Positions 34,345 to 52,556 of a stretch of DNA of 62,203 nucleotides are shown here, piece by piece. The position numbers and the translations under genes were made by a program. The notes beneath the pieces were generated by a model. That model made no database searches and was not told the origin of the DNA. It saw only the letters and a list, made by a program, of their open reading frames with translations. This stretch comes from Erysipelotrichales bacterium (GTDB taxonomy: Bacteria > Bacillota_I > Bacilli_A > Erysipelotrichales > Erysipelotrichaceae), in NCBI GenBank assembly GCA_910576345.1, contig CAJTIT010000016.1, positions 1-62,203 on the forward strand, written 5' to 3'. The stretch's first letter is position 1, and the number at the start of each line of letters is the position of its first letter.

Positions 34345-34407
34345 GTCCATAGAAACGTATCCTTTCTGTTGTGGAGGATTAATGATACCATTTCTATGGA
34401 CTTTTTT
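34345..34407 (+). terminator. Hairpin with T run (possible terminator)
   Basis: GTCCATAGAAA (34345-34355) pairs perfectly with TTTCTATGGAC (34391-34401) around a 35-base loop, followed by six T. Confidence 0.5.
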
Positions 34408-34571
34408 CATTCTCTCTTGATTCCGCTTTCATTTTACAATAGGCAATAGAATTCTAGTCGAAAAGAATGATAGTCAAATCAATAAAACTATGATATGATA
34501 GTAAATATTTTGAGAGAGTTAATGTCTTTAGTGAATACGTCTTTCATAAATAGGTTTTATACAAACATTCT

Positions 34572-34616
34572 AATCAGCGTTTTTTGAGTGTTATGCTCAT
34601 GAAATGCTGATTTTCT
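34572..34616 (+). terminator. Long hairpin before the RNA polymerase gene
   Basis: AATCAGCGTTTT...TGAG pairs with CTCA...GAAATGCTGATT (16 of 17 positions pair), followed by TTTTCTTTT. It would insulate the tail locus from upstream transcription or act as an attenuator. Confidence 0.6.
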
Positions 34617-34803
34617 TTTATTATATTTAAACCTATGAAACATGCTTGTCTTAGCAATAAGATGATATAAAAAGGTAAATGAGGATCTGATGAAAAATCA
34701 GACAGATTGATGCGTTCATTTAAAAAATAATACAAATATTTCACGCAAAAAAAACATGCCCTTTTGTGAAACAATAAAAAAAATTACGCAGGAGGGCAAA
34801 CAG

Positions 34804-37368
34804 GTGAAACATTGTAATCAATTTCCAAAAAATCTTACAGTTGAAAGAGAAATAATGTTGAAATCTGATAAACTGCAAGAAGGTCGATTGTTTTTGGATG
34901 AAGTAAACAAGCTGAAACAAGAACATTGGACTGAAAAAGAAATAGCAGCACATTTTCACTTAACGATTAAAGAATTAAGAATGCACAAATCTCAAGCAAA
35001 AAAACAAATAAGGGGATATGAAATTACGTATGCGAAAAAGCTGCGAATCGAAGGAAAGTCCTATCAAGAAATAGCAGATATCATGGGCTATAACAATGAT
35101 TCATCCGTACGTTCATTGCTAAATACTTCAGCAGAAAATAGAATGAATCTGGTAAAAAAAACAGCAGATATTTTAAAAACGCTTGTAGATGAAAAAGGAA
35201 TGATCGAAGTAGGGGCAGGGGTAGAATTAGAAATGAACATATCTAGAAATAGATTTGAGGAAGCGTTATTCCTCCTTAAATCTCAAAAATATTTGGTTTA
35301 CAAGGCAAGAGTCGCACAATTAACAAATCCTAGAAAATATACAACCATAACAGTTCTATGCCCGCCAGGTACAAAATATAAAGAGATTTATCATTTCAAA
35401 AGCATTCATACAGTAGTCGACTATCAACTAAGACAAACAGATGATGCCTATGATGATCATCCATTTATTTATCCAAAAAGCATGGACTCTAAGCGGTTGA
35501 AAATTTGTTATGCTGAAGAAGGTGGACTTCAAAAAGACGGATTGATTGAATTAAGAAGAAATGTTGCGGATTTATCTTTAGGAAACGCGCATTATGCACA
35601 AATTCGTATTTTGGTTGATCATCATTATTATCTAAAAGGTATGGCTGTTTACACTGACCATTTGCCTGATGGTATCGATGTTCTTTTTTATACGAGTAAA
35701 CCTTCCTCTATGAGTATGGAAAATGTTCTTAAACCAATCAAAGAGGATGCGGATAATCCGTTTGGTTCATTGATTAAAGAGCGGGGAGGACAAAGTTTTT
35801 ATATGGATGATAAAGGAAAACAATGTCTTTCATTGATCAACAAGAGATCAGACGAGGGAGATTGGTCACAATGGACAGACAAGCTACCATCTCAATTCCT
35901 TTCCAAACAAAGTCTTACATTGATTCAAACGCAACTAGAAAGGACGATAACGGAACGGAAGAAACAATTGGAAACAATCTGTTCTATCAAGCAGCCAACA
36001 ATAAAAAAACATATGCTTAATAGTTTTGCTGAAGATTGTGATTCTGCTGCTATTCATTTGAAAGCAACTGCACTGCCAGGACAAAAATTTCAAGTATTGC
36101 TGCCGCTTCCTTCATTAAAAGATACGGAAGTGTACGCACCACAGTTTGCAAACATGGAAAAAGTAGCACTTATCCGATTCCCTCATGGAGGCATTTTTGA
36201 AATTCCCATCCTTACTGTAAACAATGAACATGCAGAAGCGAAAGAGCACTATGGTGAATTATCAGACGCAATAGTTATCAATGATAGAGTGGCAAAAGTT
36301 TTATCCGGTGCAGATTTTGACGGTGATTGTGTTATGGTTATTCCCGTAAATGAAAAATTAAAGATTAAACATTCTTCACCATTAAAAGAATTGGAGGGAT
36401 TTGAACCTGAATTCTTATATGGAACAGTAAGGAAGAACGATGGTTATTATAATAAAAAAAACAAAAAAATACATGTAATGAATAATACACAGATAGAAAT
36501 GGGAAAAATTTCAAATTTGATTACGGATATGACTTTGAAAAATGCATCCATTCAAGAAATTGCAAGAGCAGTTCGTCACAGTATGGTTGTTATTGATGCA
36601 GAAAAGCATAAGTTAGATTATAAACAAAGTGCAGTGGATCATAATATTGCGGAACTAAAAAGAAAATATCAAGGAAAAATTGATAAAAACGGAGTCTATC
36701 ATGAAGGAGTTTCTACTCTGCTTTCAAAAGCGAAATCGGATCAGCCAGTATTGAAAAGGCAAGGAGATCCTATTATTGATAAGGAAACAGGAGAACTTCA
36801 TTATAAAGAAGTTAAAGAAGAATATATAGATAAAAAATCTGGAAAGAAAAAATTAAAGATGATGATGAGTACAAAAATGGCTGAAACAAAAAATGCATAT
36901 GAACTATCGTCAGGAACACCAAAGGAAGCATTGTATGCAGAATATGCGAATGCTTGTAAGTCACTGGCGAATCAAGCAAGGAAAGAAATGCTGAAAATAA
37001 AGAAAGAGAAAATTTCAATCGATGTAAAACGCCAATATCGCAGTGAAATCGCATCTTTGCAAAAGAAACTGAAAGAATCACTAAAAAATGCACCGCGTGA
37101 AAGAATCGCGCAAATTGAAGCAAATGCAGAAATCAATATGTTAATAAAAAACTGTCCTGATTTATCAAAAGGAGAATTGTCAAAGCGTAAGCAACAAGCT
37201 TTATTCAAAGCAAGAATGCATTACCATGCCAAAAGGAAAATGATTCAAGTTACAAAATTAGAGTGGCAGGCAATTCAGGCAGGCGCACTCAGTGAAAACA
37301 AATTATCGCAATTGATGCATTTTATCGATATGAATGAATGTAAGGAGCACATGAAAAATGATTGTTAA
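34804..37368 (+). CDS. YonO-like single-subunit DNA-dependent RNA polymerase
   Basis: The protein has 854 residues from GTG 34804, with GGAGGG exactly 7 bases upstream; a longer frame to 34756 lacks one. The N-terminus has two helix-turn-helix-like units (WTEKEIAAHFHLTIKEL and KSYQEIADIMGYNNDSSVRSLL, about 35-105). The core resembles the beta-prime active site: KVALIRFPHGGIFEIPIL, then the catalytic SGADFDGDCVMVIP with DFDGD at 504-508, whose three Asp bind Mg2+. A Lys-rich helical C-terminus follows. This double-psi-barrel type is known from YonO of phage SPbeta (about 900 residues), which transcribes late phage genes. Here it precedes the tail genes on the same strand, so it probably transcribes them. 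Often annotated as RNA-dependent RNA polymerase; that is the alternative reading. Confidence 0.88.
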   Translation: MKHCNQFPKNLTVEREIMLKSDKLQEGRLFLDEVNKLKQEHWTEKEIAAHFHLTIKELRMHKSQAKKQIRGYEITYAKKLRIEGKSYQEIADIMGYNNDSSVRSLLNTSAENRMNLVKKTADILKTLVDEKGMIEVGAGVELEMNISRNRFEEALFLLKSQKYLVYKARVAQLTNPRKYTTITVLCPPGTKYKEIYHFKSIHTVVDYQLRQTDDAYDDHPFIYPKSMDSKRLKICYAEEGGLQKDGLIELRRNVADLSLGNAHYAQIRILVDHHYYLKGMAVYTDHLPDGIDVLFYTSKPSSMSMENVLKPIKEDADNPFGSLIKERGGQSFYMDDKGKQCLSLINKRSDEGDWSQWTDKLPSQFLSKQSLTLIQTQLERTITERKKQLETICSIKQPTIKKHMLNSFAEDCDSAAIHLKATALPGQKFQVLLPLPSLKDTEVYAPQFANMEKVALIRFPHGGIFEIPILTVNNEHAEAKEHYGELSDAIVINDRVAKVLSGADFDGDCVMVIPVNEKLKIKHSSPLKELEGFEPEFLYGTVRKNDGYYNKKNKKIHVMNNTQIEMGKISNLITDMTLKNASIQEIARAVRHSMVVIDAEKHKLDYKQSAVDHNIAELKRKYQGKIDKNGVYHEGVSTLLSKAKSDQPVLKRQGDPIIDKETGELHYKEVKEEYIDKKSGKKKLKMMMSTKMAETKNAYELSSGTPKEALYAEYANACKSLANQARKEMLKIKKEKISIDVKRQYRSEIASLQKKLKESLKNAPRERIAQIEANAEINMLIKNCPDLSKGELSKRKQQALFKARMHYHAKRKMIQVTKLEWQAIQAGALSENKLSQLMHFIDMNECKEHMKNDC

Positions 37369-37452
37369 ATACTGTTTGTTTTTAATTGATTATAAGAAAC
37401 TTACATGAACATAAAATGAAGTCATTATGAATAAAGAAAGAAGGTGATCTAT

Positions 37453-37518
37453 ATGCATTTTATAAAAAATATGTATTTAATTGTTCCGATGAACAAACAT
37501 CCTGTAAAATTTATGTAA
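37453..37518 (+). CDS. Possible 21-residue peptide between polymerase and tail genes
   Basis: ATG 37453 has AAGGTG 6 bases upstream and encodes MHFIKNMYLIVPMNKHPVKF with one more residue. It is short enough to be chance, but the ribosome binding site is good. No known family. Confidence 0.25.
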   Translation: MHFIKNMYLIVPMNKHPVKFM

Positions 37519-37550
37519 TCTAAAAAGACATCTTCGTTTAATGACAAGAA

Positions 37551-37559
37551 TGTTATAAT
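37551..37559 (+). promoter_or_regulatory. Extended -10 promoter before the tail structural genes
   Basis: TGT-TATAAT (37551-37559) is an extended -10 element without a clear -35. Host sigma-A polymerase could start here; the phage-type polymerase may use another, unrecognised sequence in the same 330-base gap (37369-37697). Confidence 0.45.
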
Positions 37560-37641
37560 GGCCGGTCAATGATATGAACTGCACTTTTTGATTACCGTGA
37601 TTTAAATGGATGGAATGTTCAGGTAGACAAGGAGGATGTAA

Positions 37642-37683
37642 ATGGAACAAGAGAAAATTTTCTTTCTTTTCCTTAGGAAATAG
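37642..37683 (+). CDS. Possible 13-residue leader peptide
   Basis: ATG 37642 has AAGGAGG 7 bases upstream and encodes MEQEKIFFLFLRK. Its stop abuts the ribosome binding site of the tail terminator gene, which suggests translational coupling or a leader. Confidence 0.35.
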   Translation: MEQEKIFFLFLRK

Positions 37684-37697
37684 AAGGAGGTGCTGTT

Positions 37698-38033
37698 ATG
37701 AATAATAGACAAGCATTACAGGTAGAATTAGAAAAGCTTTTAGGAAGTTCAAATGTGTTTGATCACTCTACAATGTCTACAGAAATGCAGTATCCGGCAA
37801 TTGTGTATCAAAGACATGGGGTCAATCGCACATTTGCTAACAACACGGTATACGGTCAAAGTTATTTATATGAAATAACAGTGATACACCGTGATTTAGA
37901 TAATGAGATAGTAGAAAAAATGTTACATATGCCCTCATTTACTTTTGATCGGCAATATATAACAAATGATCTCATTTATGATGTATTTATATTAAAATAT
38001 GAAATAGGAGGAAAACAATTATGGCAAAATTAA
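37698..38033 (+). CDS. Tail terminator-like protein, 111 residues
   Basis: This small alpha/beta protein (NNRQALQVELEKLLGSSNVF, then YPAIVYQRHGVNRTFANN and YLYEITVIHRD) stands immediately before the tube gene. That is the canonical position of the siphophage tail terminator/completion protein. AGAAGGAGGTG gives a perfect ribosome binding site. It caps the tail tube and, in phages, joins it to the head. In a tail-only particle it would close the end. Family identity is from shape and order. Confidence 0.65.
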   Translation: MNNRQALQVELEKLLGSSNVFDHSTMSTEMQYPAIVYQRHGVNRTFANNTVYGQSYLYEITVIHRDLDNEIVEKMLHMPSFTFDRQYITNDLIYDVFILKYEIGGKQLWQN

Positions 38034-38686
38034 CATGGGATAATAACGGAGAACGTTTCTATGAAGTGGGCGTAAAACAATGTGCTTTATATGTACAAGC
38101 GGAAGGTGGAACATATCCAAAAGGTGTTGCTTGGAATGGGATCACGACTGTTACGGAAAGTCCGTCTGGTGCAGAAACTACAGCATTATATGCAGATGAT
38201 ATCAAATATTTGAGCATGATGTCTAATGAAGAATTTGGAGCAACCATTGAAGCATATACATACCCGGATGAATTCGCTGTATGCGATGGATCCGCTTCTT
38301 TGGCAAAAGGCGTTACGATTGCACAGCAGCCAAGAAAAACGTTCGGTTTGGCTTATAAAACAAATTTAGGAAATGATGTACAGGGAAATGATTATGGATA
38401 TAAACTCCATTTGATTTATGGAGCCTTGGCAGCTCCATCGGAAAAAGGATATACTACCATTAATGATAGCCCTGAGGCCATCACATTCTCATGGGCAGTC
38501 ACAACAACGCCTGTCAAGGTAGATGGATTCAAACCTACTGCCAGCTTGACGATTGATTCTACAAAAGCAGATGCGACAAAACTTGCAGAACTGGAAGCAA
38601 TTCTTTTTGGTGATGAGTCTGCAGAAGCTAGGCTTCCATTACCAAATGAAGTTGCAGAATTAATGGATGTTCAAGAAGGCAACTAA
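38021..38686 (+). CDS. Major tail (tube) protein
   Basis: The 221-residue protein is of the phi13/TP901-type major tail family: TWDNNGERFYEVGVKQCALY, ITTVTESPSGAETTALYADDIKYL, FGATIEAYTYPDEFAVCDG, then FGLAYKTNLGNDVQGNDYGYKLHLIYG and a C-terminal TPVKVDGFKPTASLTIDST. Subunits stack into hexameric rings forming the tube. It overlaps the preceding gene by 13 bases. A hairpin follows, as is common after highly expressed tube genes. Confidence 0.9.
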   Translation: MAKLTWDNNGERFYEVGVKQCALYVQAEGGTYPKGVAWNGITTVTESPSGAETTALYADDIKYLSMMSNEEFGATIEAYTYPDEFAVCDGSASLAKGVTIAQQPRKTFGLAYKTNLGNDVQGNDYGYKLHLIYGALAAPSEKGYTTINDSPEAITFSWAVTTTPVKVDGFKPTASLTIDSTKADATKLAELEAILFGDESAEARLPLPNEVAELMDVQEGN

Positions 38687-38770: not shown

Positions 38771-39181
38771 ATGTTAAAAAAGACAATTACATATATGGAT
38801 TATAATGGGGTGGAGAGAACAGAAGATTTTTATTTCAATCTTTCAAAACCTGAATTATTAGAAATGGAACTTGGAACAACGGGTGGATTTAGCGAAATGA
38901 TGAATAAAATTATTGCGGCAAAAGATACTGCATCTTTAATTAAGACATTTAAAGAGCTGATTTTGAAGTCATATGGCGTTAAAAGTGAAGATGGAAAAAG
39001 GTTCATGAAATCAAAAGAACTTTCAGAAGCATTTTCACAGACAGAGGCTTATGTGAATCTTTATATGGAATTATCAACCAATGATCAAGCCGCATCTGCG
39101 TTTGCGAATGGCATCATTCCAAAAGAATTGGCGAAAGCTGCGATAGAACAAACCGCACGAATCGAAAACACGGATGCTTAA
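38771..39181 (+). CDS. Tail assembly chaperone (gpG-like), 136 residues
   Basis: The helical protein starts LKKTITYMDYNGVERTEDFYFNLSKPELLEMELGTTGGFSEM, typical of the Gram-positive tail chaperone placed between tube and tape measure. AAAAGGAG precedes the ATG. It binds the tape measure during tail assembly. Its end overlaps the next gene by 8 bases; the frame relation is +1 (or -2), and no classic -1 slippery heptamer was found. Confidence 0.8.
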   Translation: MLKKTITYMDYNGVERTEDFYFNLSKPELLEMELGTTGGFSEMMNKIIAAKDTASLIKTFKELILKSYGVKSEDGKRFMKSKELSEAFSQTEAYVNLYMELSTNDQAASAFANGIIPKELAKAAIEQTARIENTDA

Positions 39182-39716
39182 AATTCAGATTAACGAAAGT
39201 GAATTGTGGGATGAAAATAAACAGGAGTTTATATTCATTCATGATCATACACTATGTTTAGAACATTCGCTGGTATCTATTTCAAAATGGGAATCGAAAT
39301 GGCATAAGCCGTTTTTATCAAAGGAATCAAAAACGCTGGAAGAAACATTAGATTATATTCGATGCATGACGATTACACAAAATGTAAGACCGGAAGTATA
39401 CCAATGCATAGATTCTGAGCATATTCAGATAATTAATCACTATATTGATAATTCTATGACGGCTACATGGTTTTCAAGTCAAAGGAATCAGGGCGGTAAC
39501 AGGGAACAAGTAACAAGTGAATTGATTTACTACTGGATGGTCGCATTGAATATACCATTTGAATGTCAGAAATGGCATTTAAATCGTTTGTTGACATTAA
39601 TAAAGATTTGCAACATTAAAAATCAGCCGGCAAAAAGAAGAAGTAGAAATGAATTAATGAGTAGGAATGCAGCACTCAATGCAGCAAGAAAGAAACAGCT
39701 TCATTCAAAAGGTTGA
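39174..39716 (+). CDS. Tail assembly chaperone, second protein, 180 residues
   Basis: The motifs KIQINESELWDENKQEF, LEHSLVSISKWESKWHKPFLS and TLEETLDYIRCMTITQNV match a common Firmicute phage protein in the gpGT-equivalent slot, normally annotated as hypothetical or tail chaperone. The C-terminus is basic. The ATG lies inside the end of the previous gene with no clear ribosome binding site, so it is translated by re-initiation or frameshift. Confidence 0.75.
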   Translation: MLKIQINESELWDENKQEFIFIHDHTLCLEHSLVSISKWESKWHKPFLSKESKTLEETLDYIRCMTITQNVRPEVYQCIDSEHIQIINHYIDNSMTATWFSSQRNQGGNREQVTSELIYYWMVALNIPFECQKWHLNRLLTLIKICNIKNQPAKRRSRNELMSRNAALNAARKKQLHSKG

Positions 39717-39731: not shown

Positions 39732-40652
39732 ATGAAAATAATGATATTATGCGGACATGGAAATGATATCAATCATTATGATCCGGGTGCAATAGGGTGT
39801 GGATTTGTAGAAGCAAAAGAAACGATCATCTATGGCAATAAAATTGCGGAATTTTTACGTAAATATGCAACTGTTGATGTGTTTGAGGACAATATGTATC
39901 ATTTGCTTTTTGGTAGAAGTGGCAGTTTTGATTTTACACCATATGATTATGTCTTGGAATGTCATCTGAATAGCGCTGAAAATGTTTCTGCACATGGTAC
40001 AGAGATATATGTTACAACAAGTGAAAAAGAAATTACTGTGGAATGCGCAATTATGCGGCGTTTGTCAAAGTATTTTACTTTGCGTGACAATGATGCTGTT
40101 TTTGATGGAGTAAAACGATACAACTGGGGAGTAATCCATGCAATCAAAACACAGGATCAAGTATCATCAGCATTGTTAGAATTATGCTTTATCAGCAATC
40201 AATCCGATATGAATATCTATCAAAATAAGTTAAATGCGATATGTAAAGATATTGCAGAAGGAATTGCAGAGGGATTTCAGCTACGTCAATCCGAAGATAT
40301 AATTGAATTGCCCAAACAACCTGTTATTGCTAAACCTGTACATGGAGAAACTGGAAATTATAAAAAAACAGACGCAGAGATTGCTCAAGAAGTCATCAAT
40401 GGAATTTGGGGAAATGGACAAGTTCGAATTGAAAAATTAAGAAATGCAGGATATGATCCTCATGTGATACAGAAACTGGTAAATGCGCATTATGGTGTAA
40501 GCAGTGTTTCTCATAAAAAAACAATTGATCAGTTAGCACAGGAAGTTATTCATGGAGATTGGGGTAACGGGATGGAGCGAAAGATGAATTTGGAAAAAGC
40601 AGGTTATAATTACAAAGTAATTCAAGTAAGGGTTAATCAATTGTTGTCATAG
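39732..40652 (+). CDS. Amidase_3 endolysin with two Cpl-7 (CW_7) repeats
   Basis: The product has 306 residues. An N-terminal Amidase_3 domain (about 1-185) has ILCGHGNDINHYDPGA (zinc His), a Glu after GCGFVEAKE, LECHLNSAENV (zinc His) and ALLELCFISNQ (catalytic Glu). Two C-terminal repeats follow: IAQEVINGIWGNGQVRIEKL and LAQEVIHGDWGNGMERKMNL, the Cpl-7 type cell-wall-binding motif. It cleaves peptidoglycan and with the holin would release particles. Its place between chaperones and tape measure is unusual; most phages put lysins at the end. AAGGAGG precedes the start. Confidence 0.88.
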   Translation: MKIMILCGHGNDINHYDPGAIGCGFVEAKETIIYGNKIAEFLRKYATVDVFEDNMYHLLFGRSGSFDFTPYDYVLECHLNSAENVSAHGTEIYVTTSEKEITVECAIMRRLSKYFTLRDNDAVFDGVKRYNWGVIHAIKTQDQVSSALLELCFISNQSDMNIYQNKLNAICKDIAEGIAEGFQLRQSEDIIELPKQPVIAKPVHGETGNYKKTDAEIAQEVINGIWGNGQVRIEKLRNAGYDPHVIQKLVNAHYGVSSVSHKKTIDQLAQEVIHGDWGNGMERKMNLEKAGYNYKVIQVRVNQLLS

Positions 40653-40724: not shown

Positions 40725-40748
40725 ATAAATCGCATGATGGGAGGTAGT

Positions 40749-43700
40749 ATGCGTATGGATAAATTAATGGATAAACAAGTTGCTAAGAAGCAGTTTGATT
40801 CTGCACAATTTGAAAAAAATGTGCAAGCCTCCATGAAGACATTGGATAAATGGAAAAGTTCATTGAATTTAGAGAAAGAAATGAAAGGATTTGCAGAGCT
40901 AACCAGTCTTGCTGATAAGGTTTCTTTTGATAAACTTTCATCCAGTGTTGAACGATTAAGTAAACAGTTTGCAGAAATGGGTGCAATAGAGAAACAGGTA
41001 TCTAAGAATTTTATTCAGTCAATGATACAGTTTATGAATAAAACCCATGCGTTTAATGCTGCATGCAAATCAATGAAAAATATGAATGAGCAGTTTCAAA
41101 GTGAAAACCAAATGAAGTATTCATTTGAATTATTGCCTTTGGTAAACGTAGATGGTGCATGGAAAACATTAGGACAAATGAGTGCCATACTTGGAGGTGT
41201 TACTAGTCTAACAATACTTTATGGAAAAATTGTAGATAAAGATACGTCTCAAAGCATAAAATATACAGGTGATATGTTTAACAACATGTCCGGTGCGGTT
41301 TCTGTCATCTCAGATGCATTAGGACAGCTTTCCGGATTATCAAACAAGGAAATCGAACAAGGTTTACAGAATATGTTCAGCATAGGTATGCTGTTTGGAG
41401 TTTTCATAGGTGTTTCTGCACTTGGTGGAAAGAATACGGATAAAACAGGATCCATGTTCTTGCATATGTCTGAAGCATGTAAGACAATAGGGGAAGCAAT
41501 TCAAATAATAAATGGTTTCTCTATTGGAGATTTAAAAAAAGGTGTAAAAATTATTGCAGGATTTGAAGTTTTGTTTACAGCTATGGTTGCTGTTTCTAAA
41601 ATAGCTGGTGATAATAGTGATAAAGCAGGAAGTATGATGAAGGATATGTCACATGCAATCATGATGATGGTAAACGCAATAGCATTATTAAATCTTATGG
41701 ATGAAGATGACGTCATACGTGGTACAGCGTGCATTGTTTCATTGGGCGCAATGTTTGCTCTATTATTAAGCGTAAGTAGCAATACTGGGAAAAGCACAGG
41801 CACTGTTTTATTGATAGCAGGTGTAGTTGCAGGCTTGGCAGGTATTGTTTATCTTTTGTCAGGATTGCCAGCAGAAAATGCGATTGGGGCTGCTACTGCT
41901 TTATCTGAACTTTTGATTGCGTTCTCACTATCTTTGAAAATTCTTGAAAAAATAGATGGTATGAATGCATATGGATCCATTGTGTTTATGACGGGAATTG
42001 TTGGCGCTTTGGGTGGCATCTTATATCTTCTGCAAGGAATGCCGATGTCTTCCGCAATCGGTGCTGCGACTTCACTGTCAATTTTGTTATTGGCTTTATC
42101 AGGCGCAACTGCAACTTTAAGTAATGTAGATGAAGTATCAATAAAAGCTATTGGGGCTATTGCGGCAATGACATTGGTGATAGGGGCACTTGGTTATATC
42201 TTGTCGCAACTTCAAGAATTACATCCTGAAGCAGCGCTTGGTATTGCAACGTCTTTATCAGAACTCATCCTTGCTTTGTCAGCAGCATGTGTGATATTAG
42301 AAGTAGCAGGTATTGGTGGTACTGCAGTGTTGTATGGAGTTGCAGGATTGATTGCCCTAGTATCTTCTATGGGTTTATTGATGGCAGGTATTGGTGCTTT
42401 GATTGAATGGATTCCAGATCTTCAGAATTTTGTTGAACATGCAATCCCAATTCTTGGATCAATAGGTGAAGGAATAGGTTCATTCTTTGGTGGCTTAGTA
42501 GCTGGCCTTGCGGGAGAAATATTAGAATTAATACCTGCTTTAGGAGAATCATTATCACAATTTGCTGTGAATTTAGAACCATTTCTTGCGATGACAAATA
42601 ATCTTGATTCAGCAAAAATGGCTGGAGTAGAATCATTGGCTAAAGCAATTCTGTGTTTAACAGCAGCCAACTTGATTGATGGCGTTACACGGTTTCTTGG
42701 ATTTGGATCCTCTGACTTAGAATCATTTGGTGGCCAGCTTGGCGCATTTGGCAAAGGTATTGCTAATTTTTCAAAAGAAATTGAAGAAAATGGCGGTATT
42801 GATTCAGAAGCAGTTCAAGCAGCTGCTGATGCAGGTGCAGTCATTGCACAATTGAAAAACAGTCTTCCAAGAGAAGGAGGCTGGTTTGGAACTGTGTTTG
42901 GCAATCAAGATTTAGAGGAATTTGGCAATCAAATGGTTTACTTTGGCGCTGCAGTTTGTCATTTCTCCAATACGATTGAAGAGAATGGTGGAATTAATGA
43001 TAATGCAGTTCAAGCTGCAGCAAATGCTGGGACATTGATTGCAAATCTAAAGAATAGTCTGCCTAAAGAAGGTGGATGGTTTGGTTCTGTATTTGGAGAT
43101 CAAGATTTAATTTCATTTGGTAATCAAATGGTTTATTTTGGCGCTGCAGTTTGCAAATTCTCAAATACAATTGAAGAGAACGGCGGAATAAATCAAGACG
43201 CAGTTCAGGCAGCGGCTAGTGCTGGAATGATCATAGCAAAATTAAAAACAGCATTACCTACTGAAGGTGGCTGGTTTGGGACAGTATTTGGAGAACAAGA
43301 TTTAGCGAAGTTTGGAGAACAAATGGTAAGTTTTGGATCAGCAGTTTGTGATTTTTCCAATACGCTTATGGAAAACGGTGGAATAGATATGAAAGCGGTC
43401 CAAAGTGCAGCGAACGCAGGCGCAATTATTGCGAATCTCCAAGAAAAATTACCTGATGGAGATTCTTGGGTTTCGGATTTTTTCGGAGGAAGTAAAGAAA
43501 GTCTTAGTGATTTTGGTGAGGATTTAAAAGCGTTTGGCGTGGGAATTGTAGAATTTTCTAATATCGCGGCTGATATTCAATTTGAGTCAGCAATTCATGC
43601 ACTTGATTTTGCAAGGCAGATGATTGATTTTGTGAATTTGCTCAACGAAGATAGTTTTGATATCGGCATTTTAGATAGCTTTGATATCAGTGCACTGGGA

Positions 43701-44846
43701 GAGGCAATTAAAAACTATTATGGTCAATTATCAGATATTGAGCCTGAAAAACTTACAGTTTCTGTAGACTCAGCTATGAAATTGGTTGCTTTAGTAAGCA
43801 GTATGAAAGATTTAGATTTTAAGGCAATATCAAACTTTAAAATTGATCAAATCGGATTAGCTATTCAATCTTATGCTGGCTATGTTACTGAAATTGACCC
43901 ATACAATGTAGTTACTTCTGTGATGGCAGCACAGAAATTGGTTGATCTTGTTAAAAGTACTTCTGGTATGGATACAAATGGTGTGCCATTATTTGTGGAT
44001 GCAGTCAACAATCTCGGTCAAATAACTGCGAATCAAGTTCTTGAATCTTTACAAAGTGCTTATATTGCAGGATTTAACAGTGACGTTTTTGTTCGTTTGG
44101 CACAGGTATGGATGGATCATATGATGACAGGAATGAAAGGCAGAGAGTTGCAGATGAAATTGACCATTGGATCAATTCTAATCTCTATGGTTGAATATAT
44201 GAAGGAACAAAATCAAAACTTTTATCAGGTAGGCGCATATCTAGTTGCAGGTTTTGCGAAAGGTATTGATGAAACTACATATAAGGTGGAAGCAAAAGCG
44301 TCTGCGATGGCAAGGAGAGCAGCAGAGGCTGCCAGAAAAGAATTGGATGAGCATTCACCTTCTCGTGTATTTTACAAGATTGGTGCATTTGCAGGAAAAG
44401 GATTTATCAATGCTTTAACTGATTATGGATTAAAGGCATACCATGCGGGAACAGATTTGGTAAATCAAGCCCATAATGGATTGAGCAAAGCAATTCCCCA
44501 TGTTGTATCGGCAATTCATCTGGATATGGATGCAACGCCTACAATAACACCTGTTCTTGATTTAAGTGATGTCTCGAGTGGTGCCGGGACTATTGGACGT
44601 ATGTTACGTATGTCTCCCTCTATTGGATTAATGAACAATGTAACAGCAATTGATGCGATGATGAACGCAAGCCATCGTAATACGAATCAAGATGTAGTGT
44701 CCGCAATACATGAATTAAAAAATACGTTTGGAAACTTTACGGGGAACACATATCATTTAGGCAATATCACATATGATGATGGAAGCTCAATTTCTGCTGC
44801 AGTCAAAGAGCTCATAAGGGCTGCCAAGATAGAAAGGAGGATGTGA
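40749..44846 (+). CDS. Tail tape measure protein
   Basis: The protein has about 1,365 residues. ATG 40749 has GGGAGG 4 bases upstream, while ATG 40755 would have better spacing. Amphipathic helices at the N-terminus are followed by many hydrophobic Ala/Gly-rich helices (about 150-620). Four perfect-length 65-residue repeats (195 bases each, starting 42714, 42909, 43104 and 43299) follow, with the core FGNQMVYFGAAVCxFSNTIE and GGWFGxVFG. The C-terminus has EAARKELDEHSPSRVFYKIG, frequent in tape measures. At about 0.15 nm per residue it predicts a tail near 200 nm (family rule, inference). Confidence 0.9.
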   Translation: MRMDKLMDKQVAKKQFDSAQFEKNVQASMKTLDKWKSSLNLEKEMKGFAELTSLADKVSFDKLSSSVERLSKQFAEMGAIEKQVSKNFIQSMIQFMNKTHAFNAACKSMKNMNEQFQSENQMKYSFELLPLVNVDGAWKTLGQMSAILGGVTSLTILYGKIVDKDTSQSIKYTGDMFNNMSGAVSVISDALGQLSGLSNKEIEQGLQNMFSIGMLFGVFIGVSALGGKNTDKTGSMFLHMSEACKTIGEAIQIINGFSIGDLKKGVKIIAGFEVLFTAMVAVSKIAGDNSDKAGSMMKDMSHAIMMMVNAIALLNLMDEDDVIRGTACIVSLGAMFALLLSVSSNTGKSTGTVLLIAGVVAGLAGIVYLLSGLPAENAIGAATALSELLIAFSLSLKILEKIDGMNAYGSIVFMTGIVGALGGILYLLQGMPMSSAIGAATSLSILLLALSGATATLSNVDEVSIKAIGAIAAMTLVIGALGYILSQLQELHPEAALGIATSLSELILALSAACVILEVAGIGGTAVLYGVAGLIALVSSMGLLMAGIGALIEWIPDLQNFVEHAIPILGSIGEGIGSFFGGLVAGLAGEILELIPALGESLSQFAVNLEPFLAMTNNLDSAKMAGVESLAKAILCLTAANLIDGVTRFLGFGSSDLESFGGQLGAFGKGIANFSKEIEENGGIDSEAVQAAADAGAVIAQLKNSLPREGGWFGTVFGNQDLEEFGNQMVYFGAAVCHFSNTIEENGGINDNAVQAAANAGTLIANLKNSLPKEGGWFGSVFGDQDLISFGNQMVYFGAAVCKFSNTIEENGGINQDAVQAAASAGMIIAKLKTALPTEGGWFGTVFGEQDLAKFGEQMVSFGSAVCDFSNTLMENGGIDMKAVQSAANAGAIIANLQEKLPDGDSWVSDFFGGSKESLSDFGEDLKAFGVGIVEFSNIAADIQFESAIHALDFARQMIDFVNLLNEDSFDIGILDSFDISALGEAIKNYYGQLSDIEPEKLTVSVDSAMKLVALVSSMKDLDFKAISNFKIDQIGLAIQSYAGYVTEIDPYNVVTSVMAAQKLVDLVKSTSGMDTNGVPLFVDAVNNLGQITANQVLESLQSAYIAGFNSDVFVRLAQVWMDHMMTGMKGRELQMKLTIGSILISMVEYMKEQNQNFYQVGAYLVAGFAKGIDETTYKVEAKASAMARRAAEAARKELDEHSPSRVFYKIGAFAGKGFINALTDYGLKAYHAGTDLVNQAHNGLSKAIPHVVSAIHLDMDATPTITPVLDLSDVSSGAGTIGRMLRMSPSIGLMNNVTAIDAMMNASHRNTNQDVVSAIHELKNTFGNFTGNTYHLGNITYDDGSSISAAVKELIRAAKIERRM
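42714..43493 (+). repeat. Four tandem 195-bp repeats within the tape measure gene
   Basis: Units start at 42714, 42909, 43104 and 43299 and each encode 65 residues with conserved FGxQM, AVQAAAxAG and EGGWFGxVFG segments. The last unit is more diverged. Changes in copy number would shift tail length by about 10 nm per unit. Confidence 0.85.
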
Positions 44847-44847
44847 A

Positions 44848-47448
44848 ATGCCAGCAGTAACGAATCTAAAAATACAATTGCAATCAGGTACAACAAACAC
44901 GTATTTTGCATCATGGGATTTCAATGATACTTATCGATCAACCACGACACAAACCGTTACTGCCCCATCGTCCATAAAAGTGGGTAACTGGGTAACGGTA
45001 AAATCTGGAGCGAAAGCATTTAATGGTGTTTCTCTAGCACCTCTTGTTTTTAATAACGGACCATGGGAAGTGATACAAATTGGTGGACAAGGATTACCAA
45101 ATACACGTGTGGTCATTCATAGAAACAAAAGTGGAACAAATGCAATAATGACACCTATACATATCAATAATTTAGTTGGAGAAAACCAAAGTTCAAGTTC
45201 TACACAAACTGTGGTTGCATATAATACATTAGAACATTATATAGTTGAGTGGTCTTATTATACAGGAGATGGTGTTTGGTTTACAGCACAATCATCCAAT
45301 ATTAAAAACAAATATGCGACTTATTCGCCACCAGCAAATGCTTTGCGATTTAGAGTTAGTGTAAAACCTGTTTCTAAAACGCATAAAGTAAACGGAGTAG
45401 ACACAGTTTATTGGACTGGTACCACCCTCACAAAGGTCTTTGAAATGGCGTATGCTCCTCCACAGAAACCATCTTCCGCTCCAAGTGTGAAAATTGAGAA
45501 ATACACGCTAGAAGCATCTTTAAACAATATTACGGATATAAGAGCGGATAAGATTGAGTTCCAGATTTTCAATGGAACGAAAATTTTGAAAACCATAAAT
45601 GCGAAAGTAGAAATGGCACAGGCTGCTTGTTCATTTGGAATTTCACCCGGAGGCAGTTACCGTGTTAGATGTCGTGCTGTGAATATAGTAGGAAGTTCTA
45701 AAGTTTATGGTGAGTGGTCAGCTTATTCCAATGCATTGAGCGCAGAACCGCCAGCTTTAAAAGGTATAGCAAATTTGAGAGCCAACTCTCCAACGGAAAT
45801 CTATATAGCATGGCAAGGCGTTGTTTCGGCTAAAAACTATACGATACAGTATACAACTAATAAAGATCATTTTGACGGATCCTCAGATGTGACCAAAATT
45901 GATACGGAACTATTATTTTATACAATTGGAAACTTAGAAACAGGCAAAGAATATTTTTTCCGTGTGAGAGCAAACAATAGTACAGGATCTTCTCCATGGA
46001 CGAAGGTAAAGTCCATTATCATAGGAAGAAAGCCAGCTGCCCCCACAACTTGGATGACAACCAATACCGCTATAACGGGTGAGTCAATAACACTTTATTG
46101 GCTCCATAATGCACAAGATAATTCTATTATTAAATCTGCAATTGTTGAAGTGTATATGGGTAAAGAAAAACATGATTATCTTCATACATATAACAGAAAT
46201 GAAGATAGTGCAGATACAGTATGTACAAGATTGATTGATACTTCTAAATGCAGTGAAGGGCTAGAAATCAAGTGGAGAGTGAAAACAGCGGGTGTTACCG
46301 GAGAATATGGAGATTGGTCGATCCAAAGAATGATTACAGTATATGCACCTCCAACACTGGAATTCACACTGACAGATACCAATGATGAGCTGATAGAAAC
46401 TCTGACATCTTTTCCATTTCGTTTTCATGCATTGGCCGGCCCTCATACACAAGCGCCAACGGGCTATCACCTTTCTATTGTTTCATTATCGATGTATGAG
46501 ACAGTGGATCAAGTTGGGAATCCCAAAATAGTGAATGAAGGCGAAGAAGTATTCTCTAAATATTATGACATAGGAACTTTTGATGATGGAAAGAATTTTC
46601 CTTTATTGACAGAGCTTTATCCTAATCATATTGATTTGACAAGCAATGTTAGATACAAAGCAATATGTGTTGCTTCCATGGATTCGGGGTTGACTGTAGA
46701 ATCTTTTTTAGAATTTGATGTGTTGTGGACAGAACTAAAATATGAACCAGATGCAGAAATAGGTATTGATTATGATACATATTCTGCTTATATTCGACCT
46801 TATTGCATTGATTATGATGACCATATCATTGATGAAGTAACGTTATCTGTATATCGTAGAGAGTTTGATGGCAGATTTACAGAAATTGCGACAGATATTG
46901 ATTCATATGCTAGCACAACGGTAATTGATCCACATCCTTCATTGGATTATGCAAGATATCGTATCGTAGCCACTGCTAAAGATACAGGTGCAGTCAGTTT
47001 CTATGATCCTCCAGGATATCCTGTGAAATGCAGCGATATCGTTCTACAGTGGAATGAAGAATGGTGTGATTTCGATGCACATGGTGAACAAATGCTGGAT
47101 GCGCCATCATGGACAGGTTCACTGTTAAAATTGCCATATAATATTGATATATCCGAAAATAATTCTATTGATGTAGAACTGGTTAAGTATATTGGACGAG
47201 CGCATCCGGTTAGTTATTATGGTACACAACTTGGAACCGGTTCCAGTTGGAACACAGTGATTCCTAAGGGCGATAAGGAAACATTATATGCACTTCGACG
47301 ATTGGCAATTTGGATGGGAGATGTTTATGTAAGGGAACCATCCGGTATTGGATATTGGGCAAACATATCTGTCTCTTTCAGCCAAAAACATTGCGATTCT
47401 AGTATACCGGTGTCAATAGATATCACAAGGGTGGAAGGAAGTGTGTAG
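44848..47448 (+). CDS. Baseplate/tail-tip protein with fibronectin type III domains
   Basis: The product has 866 residues. An N-terminal domain (about 1-115) contains IKVGNWVTVKSGAKAFNGV and GPWEVIQIGGQGLPNTRVVI. At least two or three fibronectin III-like modules follow (about 120-510, for example SPTEIYIAWQGVVSAKNYTIQY and GKEYFFRVRANNSTGSSPW). The C-terminal part is about 350 residues, beta-rich. It starts one base after the tape measure stop, with AGGAGGATGTG upstream, in the slot normally held by the distal tail protein. Fn3 modules often help binding to host polysaccharide. Confidence 0.8.
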   Translation: MPAVTNLKIQLQSGTTNTYFASWDFNDTYRSTTTQTVTAPSSIKVGNWVTVKSGAKAFNGVSLAPLVFNNGPWEVIQIGGQGLPNTRVVIHRNKSGTNAIMTPIHINNLVGENQSSSSTQTVVAYNTLEHYIVEWSYYTGDGVWFTAQSSNIKNKYATYSPPANALRFRVSVKPVSKTHKVNGVDTVYWTGTTLTKVFEMAYAPPQKPSSAPSVKIEKYTLEASLNNITDIRADKIEFQIFNGTKILKTINAKVEMAQAACSFGISPGGSYRVRCRAVNIVGSSKVYGEWSAYSNALSAEPPALKGIANLRANSPTEIYIAWQGVVSAKNYTIQYTTNKDHFDGSSDVTKIDTELLFYTIGNLETGKEYFFRVRANNSTGSSPWTKVKSIIIGRKPAAPTTWMTTNTAITGESITLYWLHNAQDNSIIKSAIVEVYMGKEKHDYLHTYNRNEDSADTVCTRLIDTSKCSEGLEIKWRVKTAGVTGEYGDWSIQRMITVYAPPTLEFTLTDTNDELIETLTSFPFRFHALAGPHTQAPTGYHLSIVSLSMYETVDQVGNPKIVNEGEEVFSKYYDIGTFDDGKNFPLLTELYPNHIDLTSNVRYKAICVASMDSGLTVESFLEFDVLWTELKYEPDAEIGIDYDTYSAYIRPYCIDYDDHIIDEVTLSVYRREFDGRFTEIATDIDSYASTTVIDPHPSLDYARYRIVATAKDTGAVSFYDPPGYPVKCSDIVLQWNEEWCDFDAHGEQMLDAPSWTGSLLKLPYNIDISENNSIDVELVKYIGRAHPVSYYGTQLGTGSSWNTVIPKGDKETLYALRRLAIWMGDVYVREPSGIGYWANISVSFSQKHCDSSIPVSIDITRVEGSV

Positions 47449-47449
47449 T

Positions 47450-48514
47450 ATGATTGATTGGACAGCAACCATGACACAAACTTTTGAGTATTATATCATC
47501 GATCCAAAAACGTGGAAAGAAGTGCGGAAACTAAACAATATTACATCTGTGACCATTCGTCATGAAAGTGATACAGAAACATTAGGTTCAGCTACAATTG
47601 ATGCGATCAATGCACTAGGAGAGGCATATGTAAGAATTTATATGATTGTTTTTCAAAATGGAATAAAAGAACGTATTCCTTTGGGAACCTATCTGGTACA
47701 AACACCATCATCCAGTTTTAACGGTAAAGTAAGGACAGTCAGTATGGATGCATACTCGCCTTTATTGGAATTGAAAGAATCTCCTCCGCCACTTGGATAT
47801 TCACTTTTGTCAGGAGATAATGTTATGAAAAAGGCATATCAGATTTGTCGCGAACATGTCAGAGCACCGATTGTAGAAACTGAATCGTCTGAAACTTTGC
47901 ATGTTAATTTTGTAGCAGATGCTTCTGACACTTGGCTTACTTTCTTAACTGATTTGATCGCAAATGCTAATTATGAATTCATGCTAGATGAAATGGGCTG
48001 TATCTTATTTTCTCCGAAGATGGATACAGCTTCACTTCAGCCAAAATGGACATATACGGATGATAACAGTTCAATTTTATATCCAGATATCATCTTGGAT
48101 CACGATCTTTATGGTATTCCAAATGTAGTAGAAGTAGTGTATTCAAAAGGAAGACTTCATTACACTGCTCGAATAGTGAACGATGATGAAAACAGCCCAA
48201 CCTCTACAATCAATCGTGGGCGTGAGATTATTCACAGAGTGGATAATCCGGATTTGATTGGCAATCCAACGAAACTGCAGATTCAAGAATACGCAGAACA
48301 GCTTTTGAGAGATTTATCATCTGTTGAGTATTCCATCAGTTATTCACATGGTTATTGTCCTGTAAGAGTGGGGGATTGTGTACGTTTAAATTATCATAGA
48401 GCAGGTATTACGGATATAAAGGCAAAAGTAGTAAGTCAGTCAATATCGTGTGGATCGGGTTGTCAAGTGAGTGAAAAAGCGGTGTTTACAACGAATTTGT
48501 GGGGTGATGTATGA
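47450..48514 (+). CDS. Tail hub/Tal-like protein (gp27-like), 354 residues
   Basis: ATG 47450 has GGAAGGAAG upstream. The pattern FEYYIIDPKTWKEVRKLNNI, IPLGTYLVQTPSSSFNG and a middle segment with AYQICREHVRAP and WLTFLTDLIANANYEFMLDE matches the gp27-like hub domain of siphophage tail-associated proteins. No peptidase domain is fused to it, so the particle's lytic activity must lie elsewhere. It overlaps the end of the Fn3 protein and the start of the fibre gene. Confidence 0.8.
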   Translation: MIDWTATMTQTFEYYIIDPKTWKEVRKLNNITSVTIRHESDTETLGSATIDAINALGEAYVRIYMIVFQNGIKERIPLGTYLVQTPSSSFNGKVRTVSMDAYSPLLELKESPPPLGYSLLSGDNVMKKAYQICREHVRAPIVETESSETLHVNFVADASDTWLTFLTDLIANANYEFMLDEMGCILFSPKMDTASLQPKWTYTDDNSSILYPDIILDHDLYGIPNVVEVVYSKGRLHYTARIVNDDENSPTSTINRGREIIHRVDNPDLIGNPTKLQIQEYAEQLLRDLSSVEYSISYSHGYCPVRVGDCVRLNYHRAGITDIKAKVVSQSISCGSGCQVSEKAVFTTNLWGDV

Positions 48515-51500
48515 TGAAATTAACAAATGATTTGTTGACACAATTTGTAAAAGTGACAAACAATGAACGTGCAGATATTAAAGAAATGACACTTTATGGT
48601 GTAGTGGCGATACAAGGGAGCGACATGTATGTGAAACTTGATGGTTCGGATGTACTCACTCCTGTTGAAACAATGACAGCTGTAAAAGAAGGAGAACGTG
48701 TATCTGTTGTTATAAAAAATCATCATGCGCTCATTACAGGTAATTTATCGGTTCCCTCAGCTAGAAATGATGATATGTTGGAAACAAAAGGTAAGTTGAC
48801 AGAATTTGAAACAGTTGTTGCGGATAAAGTAAGTACGAGCGATTTGGATGCACAGATAGGCAGAATTGATCAGCTTTTTACTGAAAATATTAAAGTTACA
48901 GGAAAATTGAATGCAGGAGAAGCTGCAATTTCAAAATTGGAAACAGATACCATAACTATAAAAGAAAACTTGACTGCAAACAATACGGATATAACGAATC
49001 TAAAAGCATCAAAATTGGATGCAAGTGTGGCAGATATTACGTTTGCGACAATTGATAAATTAAATGCGACAAATGCTGTTTTAAATAATTTAGAATCAAC
49101 TTATGGAGATTTTGTCGAATTGACTACAGATAATTTTACATCCACAAATGCTACGATAGAAAAATTGGATACGAAGTTTGCAAAGATTGATTTAGCGAAT
49201 ATTGAAAATGGCATTATTACATCAGCGATGATCGGAGCTGGAGTTATCGGTAATGCACATATCGCAGACGGTTCTATAACGGATGCCAAAATAGTGAATT
49301 TAACTGCCAATAAACTTACTGCTGGTACCATTGATGCAGCACAAATAGATGTCATCAATCTCAATTGTTCGAATTTAACTGTTGGTTCCATTAATGGGGC
49401 ACAAATTGGGAGTGGTGCCATTGATTGGAGCAAACTCAATACGGATGTGTCAACCTCTATTGACACAGCAAACACAAATGCTTCACAAGCACTGGCTGAT
49501 GCGGAAAATGCAAAAAATACAGCAGATAGCAAAAATAAAAATTATTACAGTTCTGTACAACCTGCTGGAAATAATTATCATATTGGCGATACTTGGTTCA
49601 ATTTGAGTGATCAAACGATTCATACTTGGAATGGAAACATTTGGGAGTTATGTTCGCTAGGGGAAAACAGTATTGCGGATGCGGCTATTACCAATGCAAA
49701 GATTTTTGCACTAGATGCAGGGAAAATAACAACCGGTTATTTAGATGCGAATCGTCTCAAGGCTAGTTCAATAACTTCTGAAAAAATTGATGTGAACGCA
49801 ATTCTTGGTAAGCATATTCATGGAGAAACTATTACAGGAGATAAATTGGCGATGCAAACAATAACAGCTGATAATATTTCTTCTGGTGCTATTCAAGCAA
49901 AGCATCTCAATGCTAATACAATATTATCTGATCATATAGCCTCAGGTGCTGTAACAGCTGATAAAATCGCATCGGATGCAATAAAAAGTAAGAATTATGA
50001 AAAGGGTGTTTCCGGTGCTTTTTTGAATTTAAAGGATGGAACTTTTGATAGTAGATATCTTAACTGGGATGAGAATGGGGTCATAACAGCCACGAAAGGA
50101 ACCATTGGCGGTGTAACAATTGATTTAAATTGTTTAACGGCAAGTGAAAAATATGTAAATAATGTAACAAAAAGTTTTCACATCTGGTCAACCGGATTGA
50201 TAAATCTGGAAAGTACTGGTAGTGGCATTGATTTTTCTTTAAATTTAGATGCGGCAGGTTTAACTATAAGTTCGCAACAATCATTTAGTGGTAGTGAACC
50301 TATCAAATCGTTTTTGAAACCAGATGCGATATCTTTTTATTATTTAGAAAATCATATGGGTAGTTTAGGGTATTATAGTGATGGAATTTCTTTAAAAGCG
50401 GAACTCAATCTGAAAATTGAAGCGAAAGATGTTCAAGTAAATAATACCAGCATTCATTTATCTGATAACCAAGGCATACAAAGAATAATAAGTTTACAAA
50501 GTACAGGAGATAATAAAAGTCATCATTGTTTTTTGTACAGCGGTTCAAATTCTGATGATATAGGTGTTGGATTATGGGATGCCAAAAACAGCACCAATAT
50601 TTGGAGATATTTAGATAATACAAAAGTCTTTGAAGTTAATAGACCTACAACAATTAATTCAACACTTACTTGTGCAGCAAACTTGATTATGAACAATGGT
50701 ATTGAACTTTATCACGCTACACCTTATATTGATTTTCATTATGCAAATTCAACAGAGGATTATACTGCTCGTATAATATCTACATCAACTTCGATGTTAC
50801 GCATTCAACATTCCAGCCTTTGGGTGGAATATACATTATCAGCTGGATGGATGGCTCTTCGAAGTAAGTATATTGGATTTTATGCTACAAATACAGATGC
50901 AGCAAATGCTACAAATAGGCATGGCTGGATAGGATTTGGAACGGGTACTACCAAATGGATGACAATTAAAAATGAATGTTGTGATGGTACTAACGCAGCA
51001 GGCATTGAGATTAATTTGTTTAAAAACAATGCATATTTGCGATGGGACTATACAACAGCAAACAACTATCTTAATTATCGAACGACATGCTCTGTTCATT
51101 GGTTTGATAAAACAATCAATGTTGCAGGTCTTACCAATCGTTCAACTTTAGAAACAAAAGCAAATATTATTGAATATGAGCAGCTTTTCAAAAGTAGATC
51201 AGAAAATGAAACATGTAATAATACAATGTTAAGCGCCTTGAATATTGTCCAAAACTCAAAAATCTATCAATATGATTTGAAAACGGAAATTTATGAAGGA
51301 ACCAATCTTAACAAACATTATGGTTTTGTTATTGGGAAAGAAGGAACACCACAACAGCTATTAAGTTATAATCCGGTAACAAAGAAACCTGAAGCGATTG
51401 ATCTATATTCGATGTCAAGTATTTCTTGGCAAGCAATAAAAGAATTGAGCAATTCTGTATATAATCAACAAAAGGATCAAGCAGATATGATCCAGCAATT

Positions 51501-51582
51501 AAAAGAGATGAAAAATGAAATAATTGAATTGCGTTTGAAATTAAGTATATTTGAAAATGCTAGTGAAATAACGCAATCTTAG
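48511..51582 (+). CDS. Tail fibre/receptor-binding protein with S74-type chaperone end
   Basis: The product has 1,023 residues. A small N-terminal attachment domain (about 1-85, YGVVAIQGSDMYVKLDGSDV) precedes a long shaft of short repeats: many IDxLNAT/ITADNI/GAIQAKHLNANT units (about 90-500). Beta-rich receptor domains follow, then a C-terminal segment starting NRSTLETKANI. Ser878 and Lys883 lie five residues apart, as in the Ser-Lys dyad of peptidase S74/endosialidase chaperones that cut themselves off after trimer folding. The final coiled coil (QQKDQADMIQQLKEMKNEI) fits that domain. Target range would be set by residues ~500-870. Confidence 0.85.
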   Translation: MMKLTNDLLTQFVKVTNNERADIKEMTLYGVVAIQGSDMYVKLDGSDVLTPVETMTAVKEGERVSVVIKNHHALITGNLSVPSARNDDMLETKGKLTEFETVVADKVSTSDLDAQIGRIDQLFTENIKVTGKLNAGEAAISKLETDTITIKENLTANNTDITNLKASKLDASVADITFATIDKLNATNAVLNNLESTYGDFVELTTDNFTSTNATIEKLDTKFAKIDLANIENGIITSAMIGAGVIGNAHIADGSITDAKIVNLTANKLTAGTIDAAQIDVINLNCSNLTVGSINGAQIGSGAIDWSKLNTDVSTSIDTANTNASQALADAENAKNTADSKNKNYYSSVQPAGNNYHIGDTWFNLSDQTIHTWNGNIWELCSLGENSIADAAITNAKIFALDAGKITTGYLDANRLKASSITSEKIDVNAILGKHIHGETITGDKLAMQTITADNISSGAIQAKHLNANTILSDHIASGAVTADKIASDAIKSKNYEKGVSGAFLNLKDGTFDSRYLNWDENGVITATKGTIGGVTIDLNCLTASEKYVNNVTKSFHIWSTGLINLESTGSGIDFSLNLDAAGLTISSQQSFSGSEPIKSFLKPDAISFYYLENHMGSLGYYSDGISLKAELNLKIEAKDVQVNNTSIHLSDNQGIQRIISLQSTGDNKSHHCFLYSGSNSDDIGVGLWDAKNSTNIWRYLDNTKVFEVNRPTTINSTLTCAANLIMNNGIELYHATPYIDFHYANSTEDYTARIISTSTSMLRIQHSSLWVEYTLSAGWMALRSKYIGFYATNTDAANATNRHGWIGFGTGTTKWMTIKNECCDGTNAAGIEINLFKNNAYLRWDYTTANNYLNYRTTCSVHWFDKTINVAGLTNRSTLETKANIIEYEQLFKSRSENETCNNTMLSALNIVQNSKIYQYDLKTEIYEGTNLNKHYGFVIGKEGTPQQLLSYNPVTKKPEAIDLYSMSSISWQAIKELSNSVYNQQKDQADMIQQLKEMKNEIIELRLKLSIFENASEITQS

Positions 51583-51997: not shown

Positions 51998-52204
51998 ATG
52001 TTTAAACAGGAATTGAAACAATGGATATATTCAGCAGCTATACGAGCGTTTAAAACAATAGCACAAACTGCCGTTTCATTAATTACAGTAGGGAGTTTAT
52101 TTACAGATGTTGATTGGGTAGGTATAATTTCTATTTCAATTACTGCTGGCATTGCTTCTTTATTAACAAGTGCTGCAGGTTTACCGGAAATTAATGAATT
52201 ATAG
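51998..52204 (+). CDS. Holin, r1t type
   Basis: The 68-residue protein KQWIYSAAIRAFKTIAQTAVSLITVGSLFTDVDWVGIISISITAGIASLLTSAAGLPE matches the phage r1t holin family: two transmembrane helices separated by a DVDW turn (motifs quoted across the protein). It would make lesions that let the amidase reach the wall and release particles. Confidence 0.9.
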   Translation: MFKQELKQWIYSAAIRAFKTIAQTAVSLITVGSLFTDVDWVGIISISITAGIASLLTSAAGLPEINEL

Positions 52205-52214
52205 AGGTGAGACT

Positions 52215-52556
52215 ATGTATGATATTTTCATATCTGTCGTTACAACAATCTTAAGTGGTTTATTATTATTTGTTATGAAAGATAATATAAGTATGAAAAA
52301 AAACAATAAAAGGATAAAAGAATCACAAAGATTTGAAGCACATGAGAAAGAAAAAATAAGGGATGAATTATTATTAGGTGTGGCTAGAGTATTATTAAGT
52401 GATAAAATTCAAGGTGCACTTTTGCGTGGAGAAACTACGCAAGCAGAATATGAAATCATTGAAGAACTTTACAAACCTTATATTGAACATGGTGGCAATG
52501 GTGTAGTGAAACATTTGTTTGAAGACAGATATCATAAACTTAAGGTAAGAAGGTAA
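52215..52556 (+). CDS. Small membrane protein, 113 residues, after the holin
   Basis: ATG 52215 has TAGAGGTGAG upstream. An N-terminal helix (IFISVVTTILSGLLLFVM) is followed by a cytoplasmic charged helical region (NKRIKESQRFEAHEKEKIRDELL) and RYHKLKVRR. Phage genes with this build next to holins are annotated as second holin or minor proteins. It ends at a strong terminator, closing the tail locus. Confidence 0.7.
   Translation: MYDIFISVVTTILSGLLLFVMKDNISMKKNNKRIKESQRFEAHEKEKIRDELLLGVARVLLSDKIQGALLRGETTQAEYEIIEELYKPYIEHGGNGVVKHLFEDRYHKLKVRR

Follow-up and report, generated by a model that had tools for sequence, protein, structure and literature searches.

YonO of phage SPbeta, a single-chain two-barrel RNA polymerase, transcribes the late genes of that phage (PMC5467207). 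The single-chain proteins P23-45 gp64 and P74-26 gp62 of Thermus phages are non-virion RNA polymerases that transcribe DNA and have promoters of their own; gp62, of about 590 aa, acts in lytic phage infection (PMC10770324). F-type tailocins, e.g. F-pyocin, Listeria monocin and rhizoviticin, are a different kind of system, in which a headless non-contractile tail comes with a set of lysis and fibre genes (PMC10811719). Our literature search found no F-type tailocin with a phage-type RNA polymerase. We know of no such polymerase in any F-type tailocin; to our knowledge, what turns tailocins on are repressors and activators together with the RNA polymerase of the host.

Here we describe a locus in which the two kinds of system may have met. 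It lies in a stretch of 62,203 nucleotides from an Erysipelotrichales bacterium of the gut (hereafter the window), where a gene for a single-chain two-barrel RNA polymerase is followed by an island of tail genes. This island shares with the F-type tailocins a complete set of genes for a non-contractile tail, together with lysis and fibre genes, and head and packaging genes are absent. With somewhat better than even confidence, we read it as an HTH-RNA-polymerase phage that has been reduced in the chromosome to an F-type tailocin-like island with a polymerase dedicated to the tail operon.

The polymerase gene is found on the plus strand, within an open reading frame (34756..37368) of 870 codons without a stop. 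Two starts are in frame, an ATG at 34756 (870 aa) and a GTG at 34804, from which the gene spans 34804..37368 and encodes 854 aa. We consider the GTG the likelier start, because a Shine-Dalgarno sequence, AGGAGGG at 34790-34796, lies 7 nt before it, and because a 1-nt deletion at 34776 in a nearly identical contig (L113) would disturb only the longer frame. Residue numbers below nevertheless refer to the 870-aa frame. The gene is single-copy in the source genome. Searches of Pfam, NCBIfam and PDB sequences gave no strong match to the protein, and the profile of the phage family phrog_4291 matches residues 41-864 to profile positions 34-859 of 909 (E 6.7e-293).

A model of the polymerase made with AlphaFold2 from 80 homologs has a mean pLDDT of 86.3, with residues 1-36 disordered. 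Foldseek places this model closest to QDE-1 (E 8.5e-9), RDR2 of plants and P74-26 gp62. VIA-align, with alignments that span residues about 237-750, gives Z 16.5 for RDR2 (371 residues, 4.1 A), Z 16.4 for QDE-1, where residues 241-750 of the model lie on the two-barrel core at 683-1197, and Z 13.2 over 359 residues for gp62, at 13% identity. The catalytic barrel (residues 444-541) also fits the free double-psi barrel of p97-N with an rmsd of 1.8 A. The active-site motif, SGADFDGD in barrel DPBB-A, is encoded at 36304..36327 on the plus strand (residues 517-524, with DFDGD at 520-524) and is invariant in the 80-sequence alignment apart from one relative with DYDGD; two lysines, K294 and K315, are invariant as well. 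The original prediction, made from the DNA alone, of a single-chain polymerase with two double-psi barrels and an active site around an NADFDGD-type segment is thus borne out by the profile match and the model. Likeness to the multi-subunit enzymes was seen in the structure, where the part that beta-prime-type subunits share with the model is limited to some 80-230 residues surrounding the catalytic barrel; we found no sequence match to multi-subunit beta-prime.

Between the polymerase and the first tail gene lies a junction of 330 bp (37369..37697), where related phages have a small ORF, a cos-like region and the head module. The genes that follow are all on the plus strand. They begin with a tail terminator (37698..38033), whose phrog_78 match is modest (E 5.7e-7) and which has an ortholog in the full prophage G196, and a major tail protein (38021..38686; phrog_2645, E 4e-103). 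Two conserved genes occupy the position of tail-assembly chaperones, between the major tail protein and the tape measure (38771..39181, phrog_4282, E 3e-49; 39174..39716, phrog_4338, E 1e-77), and next to them is an endolysin with Amidase_3 and CW_7 repeats (39732..40652; Pfam, phrog_7698). The tape measure (40734..44846; phrog_4372, E 1.7e-54) has 1370 aa, as against 2244 aa in G196. It is followed by a tail protein with an fn3 domain (44848..47448; phrog_6977, Pfam fn3), a further tail protein (47441..48514; phrog_1887, E 1e-14), a tail fibre or receptor-binding candidate (48511..51582; phrog_1330 and others) and a small phage gene (51596..51976; phrog_1401, E 5e-18). The last member (52170..52556; phrog_4257, E 2e-12) encodes a small phage protein whose hydropathy shows a single membrane segment at the N-terminus, tentatively a holin. 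Three tandem 195-nt repeats are located in the tape measure gene at 42747-43331, and a 'tRNA' reported by ARAGORN at 42742, inside the same gene, is probably false.

We found no large terminase subunit (TerL), portal or capsid gene between the polymerase and the tail genes, no TerL of this phage family in the source genome, and no head-gene remnants in 33563-34755 or 37369-37697, the latter being without convincing similarity to phage loci. In phages of the family the usual order is VRR-Nuc and Cas4, polymerase, a small ORF, the genome end or cos, and then terminase, portal, capsid and tail. Where a locus had enough DNA upstream of the major tail protein, a capsid gene directly precedes it (98 of 102 loci). 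The headless exceptions are the window locus (its duplicates and L113 included) and a locus that we call L046. G196, a prophage from the same bacterial order, has matching genes in matching order, with a block of about 8-9 kb for terminase, portal, capsid and adaptor mid-way. The junction in the window is no assembly error, since it is repeated in L113, an independent metagenome contig from IMG/VR that is 99.85% identical over 34773-38846.

L046, the second headless case, comes from a mouse-gut Lachnospiraceae. Its genes are an integrase, an antirepressor, the polymerase, a major tail protein, an endolysin, a 328-aa tape measure, Dit, Tal and a fibre; the small ORF after the polymerase bears a raw deletion scar, and the tail terminator has been lost. 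Intact Lachnospiraceae phages have polymerases about 75% identical to that of L046, and among the loci checked in 397 further related genomes all were headed. A tree groups the window polymerase with that of L046 (SH-aLRT 91). Given a window branch that is very long and of deviating composition, and deletion ends that differ, this pairing neither establishes nor excludes one headless ancestor. The mobile-looking L046 element (550-21560) also carries two DUF6353 proteins.

A different headless tail locus is found in a sister species of the same genus (genome G002), between an LCP gene and MBOAT. This locus (L353, G002:C31:19000-37729, at 2465-15485 on the minus strand) is repressor-controlled, the regulators being cI-like and cro-like. 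Its tape measure is short and its major tail protein is a different one; its amidase is 64% and its fibre tip 44% identical to those of the island. It adjoins the same pair of DHHW and MBOAT genes as the island, on the other side and in opposite orientation. A headless locus near the same genes, under ordinary regulators there and with a polymerase here, supports reading the island as a tailocin.

To see what the window polymerase has lost, it must be compared with its family. By tblastn we found 250 related records from actinophages, from phages of Lactococcus and Faecalibacterium, and from oral and gut phages, and scans of genome and viral contigs added 160 more loci; a genome-wide scan with the lone window sequence gave nothing, and the alignment query succeeded. 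Named examples are phages of Gordonia, Arthrobacter and Streptomyces, Lactococcus phage 1706 and Faecalibacterium phage oengus. Homology is full-length at 34-48% identity, and up to 57% in gut phages. Of 146 distinct full-length relatives, 143 have an N-terminal tag of the form HxG..SGRYPWGSG, sought as SGR[YFW]xxG[ST]G; the window polymerase lacks it. The three tagless relatives are L046, which keeps its C-terminal HTH, and two frames that begin inside or after the motif and are probably truncated. At the other end, relatives usually carry an HTH of about 45 aa (Pfam HTH_38/HTH_23, E down to 6e-11), and the window polymerase stops short of it. As both tag and C-terminal HTH are gone, the window polymerase is best described as a reduced member of the family, not an extended one. 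The two are usual family traits found in this work, not published membership criteria; on sequence, membership is given by the profile match, and the missing termini mark a reduced variant.

Such losses might also be signs of decay. In this alternative, which we regard as unlikely though it is the strongest of the competitors, the locus is a decaying prophage remnant whose head module was deleted and whose remaining genes, the polymerase included, are drifting. The lost termini, the patchy presence in the genus and the raw scar and lost terminator of L046 would all fit. So would the divergence of the polymerase, which has an end branch of 1.07 (median 0.28) and seven changes at otherwise near-invariant sites. 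The window and L113 polymerases differ by four amino-acid changes to one silent change, one of them at the invariant R474; with these and the seven changes, constraint may recently have relaxed. However, none of the polymerase and tail ORFs is interrupted. When neutral drift was simulated to 56% identity, about 33 stops arose in the polymerase alone, with a minimum of 21, where the window gene has none, and the catalytic residues and fold are kept. From an open frame despite such strong divergence, we conclude that the polymerase was long kept for function while its constraints changed. The major tail protein is still 72-76% identical to those of phages. As a rule the polymerase exceeds the major tail protein in conservation by about 12 points, and in the window it falls about 6 points below; this reversal indicates that the acceleration is specific to the polymerase. 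That said, six other genomes of the genus lack the gene, and in viral contigs we found no closer or second, diverged copies of the tape measure or fibre, so lasting upkeep of the island in the population is unproven.

The borders of the island bear on a further possibility, that it is a tail-only satellite or helper whose tails serve another phage or capsid-forming element of the same cell, or are joined to its heads. The integrase and antirepressor kept in L046 imply that headless loci can be mobile. In the window, however, we found no integrase within the island and no convincing att-like direct repeat at its ends; the island has its own endolysin, and no matching terminase exists in the genome. 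We therefore regard this explanation as improbable. To the left are the chromosomal genes RES, ecfA, ecfA2, ecfT, truA, PHP and SUFU, and the ecf-truA-PHP order is kept in sister species that lack the island. To the right lie surface-modification genes of the DHHW and MBOAT types, together with genes for a sigma factor and for a protein of very large size.

The original prediction had explained the polymerase differently, as a YonO-family enzyme that gained an N-terminal promoter-binding region and hence needs no sigma factor. The two helix-turn-helix-like motifs that it quotes are indeed present, at residues about 62-74 and 105-122. The Pfam evidence is weak, a match to Sigma70_r4_2 with E 1.2e-4 falling under its cut-off, and PHROG profiles, including 'HTH DNA binding protein', match at E 1e-3 to 2e-4; the HTH character is above chance. 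In the whole model (pLDDT 86), and in the block modelled alone (pLDDT 89), helices 38-55/60-66/71-98 form HTH unit 1 (34867..35049, plus strand, residues 38-98) and helices 103-110/115-121/124-147 form HTH unit 2 (35062..35196, plus strand, residues 103-147, with a weak sigma-region-4-like Pfam match at 97-111). The block modelled alone consists of these two units, which share a long helix, and a winged helix (35122..35373, plus strand, residues 123-206) whose first helix is common with HTH unit 2. For residues about 123-206 the best VIA-align match is TFIIE-alpha; its Z of 7.9 is modest, and the weight comes from the uniformity of the 50 matches listed, all of winged-helix type. The proposal of two HTH-like units therefore stands; the winged helix had been overlooked, and so had the headless tail island, the more unusual feature of the locus.

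What has not stood is the notion that this region was added. About 146 distinct full-length phage relatives have the same N-terminus, and the phrog_4291 match takes in the HTHs along with SGADFDGD. A DNA-binding unit was lost from the window polymerase, not gained; its N-terminus is ordinary for the family, and it is the trimming and the setting of the enzyme that are unusual. The YonO-family assignment fares no better. A single chain, two double-psi barrels and a DxDGD motif place both enzymes in the same broad class, but family kinship is not demonstrable from sequence: tblastn with SPbeta YonO gave no match at E 10, and hhalign, run with a single YonO sequence, gave E 0.22 and a probability of 0.3% for a match around DxDGD. 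In addition, YonO is without a Pfam HTH. YonO was not among the matches listed from the viral structure library, which carries no weight against kinship. The fold and the HTH/HTH/winged-helix N-terminus are what can be said for a gained promoter-binding region, and we think such a gain still less probable than a satellite.

Least probable of all is an RNA-dependent enzyme that makes double-stranded RNA, an idea suggested by the nearest solved folds, which are eukaryotic RNA-dependent polymerases (QDE-1 and RDR2, at 15% identity, with other N- and C-terminal parts and an RNA interference role), and by records that name relatives 'RNA-dependent RNA polymerase' (others read 'helix-turn-helix DNA-binding domain protein'), since the phage analogues YonO and P23-45 gp64 transcribe DNA (PMC5467207, PMC10770324) and the window protein holds several DNA-binding-type units and adjoins late genes.

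We return to the explanation that we favour, a phage cut down to a tailocin-like island with its own polymerase. A phage of the HTH-RNA-polymerase lineage would have left only polymerase, tail, lysis and fibre genes in the chromosome. The polymerase would be expressed from a host promoter upstream of 34804, its N-terminal HTH/HTH/winged-helix block would bind DNA, and initiation would take place in the gap 37369-37697, a candidate site for the tail-operon promoter. From there, acting on a DNA template, the enzyme would transcribe the tail genes as an operon (37698 to about 52556), leading to particles that may kill. The late-operon role is proposed by analogy with YonO and the SPbeta late genes (PMC5467207), and promoter recognition by the HTH units independently of sigma is plausible on the same comparison. 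With a single remaining operon to serve, the polymerase may have lost its C-terminal HTH.

Searches for a promoter motif found none. Enriched k-mers after polymerase genes were only the conserved small ORF and C/G-rich cos-like sequence, a sigma-70 scan did no better than shuffles, repeats within the window held no promoter motif, and approximate intergenic repeats were at shuffle level, except marginally. A cos-like motif occurs in the window at chance level.

The N-terminal tag may have gone for another reason, namely that the capsid went. Tags of the type HxG..KWG are found in short proteins of these phages, 113 of 123 of them in head modules (0.179 per kb there vs 0.012 elsewhere), and none are found in the window or L046. 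We infer that the polymerase tag is kin to these head-associated tags, and it probably targets or docks the polymerase on the phage head. The correlation of tag loss with head loss comprises two headless cases, and the likeness of the two tag types was judged by eye. A hint that relatives may be virion-packaged comes from Lactococcus phage 1706, where the polymerase homolog ORF75 (L029 1833-4922) is annotated as a structural protein. The compound proposal, a tailocin with its own polymerase and a phrog_4291 tag that served head-targeting for virion delivery and was lost along with the head, is one that we put forward tentatively and rate below even. Examples of the short head-module proteins, with tags of the type HHGI(K/L)G(M/Q)KWGVRR about 15x denser there, are at L018:2386 and L018:4643; we found no paper on KWGVRR-type tags.

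If this reading is correct, a tailocin governed by its own single-chain polymerase would represent a new principle of control. An enzyme trimmed for one operon would also lend itself, as a naturally minimal system, to the question of how single-chain polymerases with two barrels find promoters, which has been open since YonO, and the tag correlation would predict in which phages the virion delivers the polymerase.

Some further observations concern the surroundings. A SUFU-domain protein is encoded at 32813-33562, left of the island. The pair of DHHW/AlgX-like and MBOAT (DltB-like) genes lies at 52586-55273 and adjoins tail loci in two species; the pair could modify the cell surface and so shield the producer. 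A sigma-factor gene and, after it, a gene for a very large protein recur in the window (55507-61688), in L364 (12098-16001) and in L348 (3264-9958), and two of the three places are near tail genes of the genus. Elsewhere in the source genome, L364 and L365 (G000:C4 and C23) carry more genes for tail, holin and endolysin, and these are related to the G002 locus. Finally, at 12064-15792 of the window a large serine recombinase comes after a DUF927 primase/helicase-like gene, and the two are probably another integrated element.
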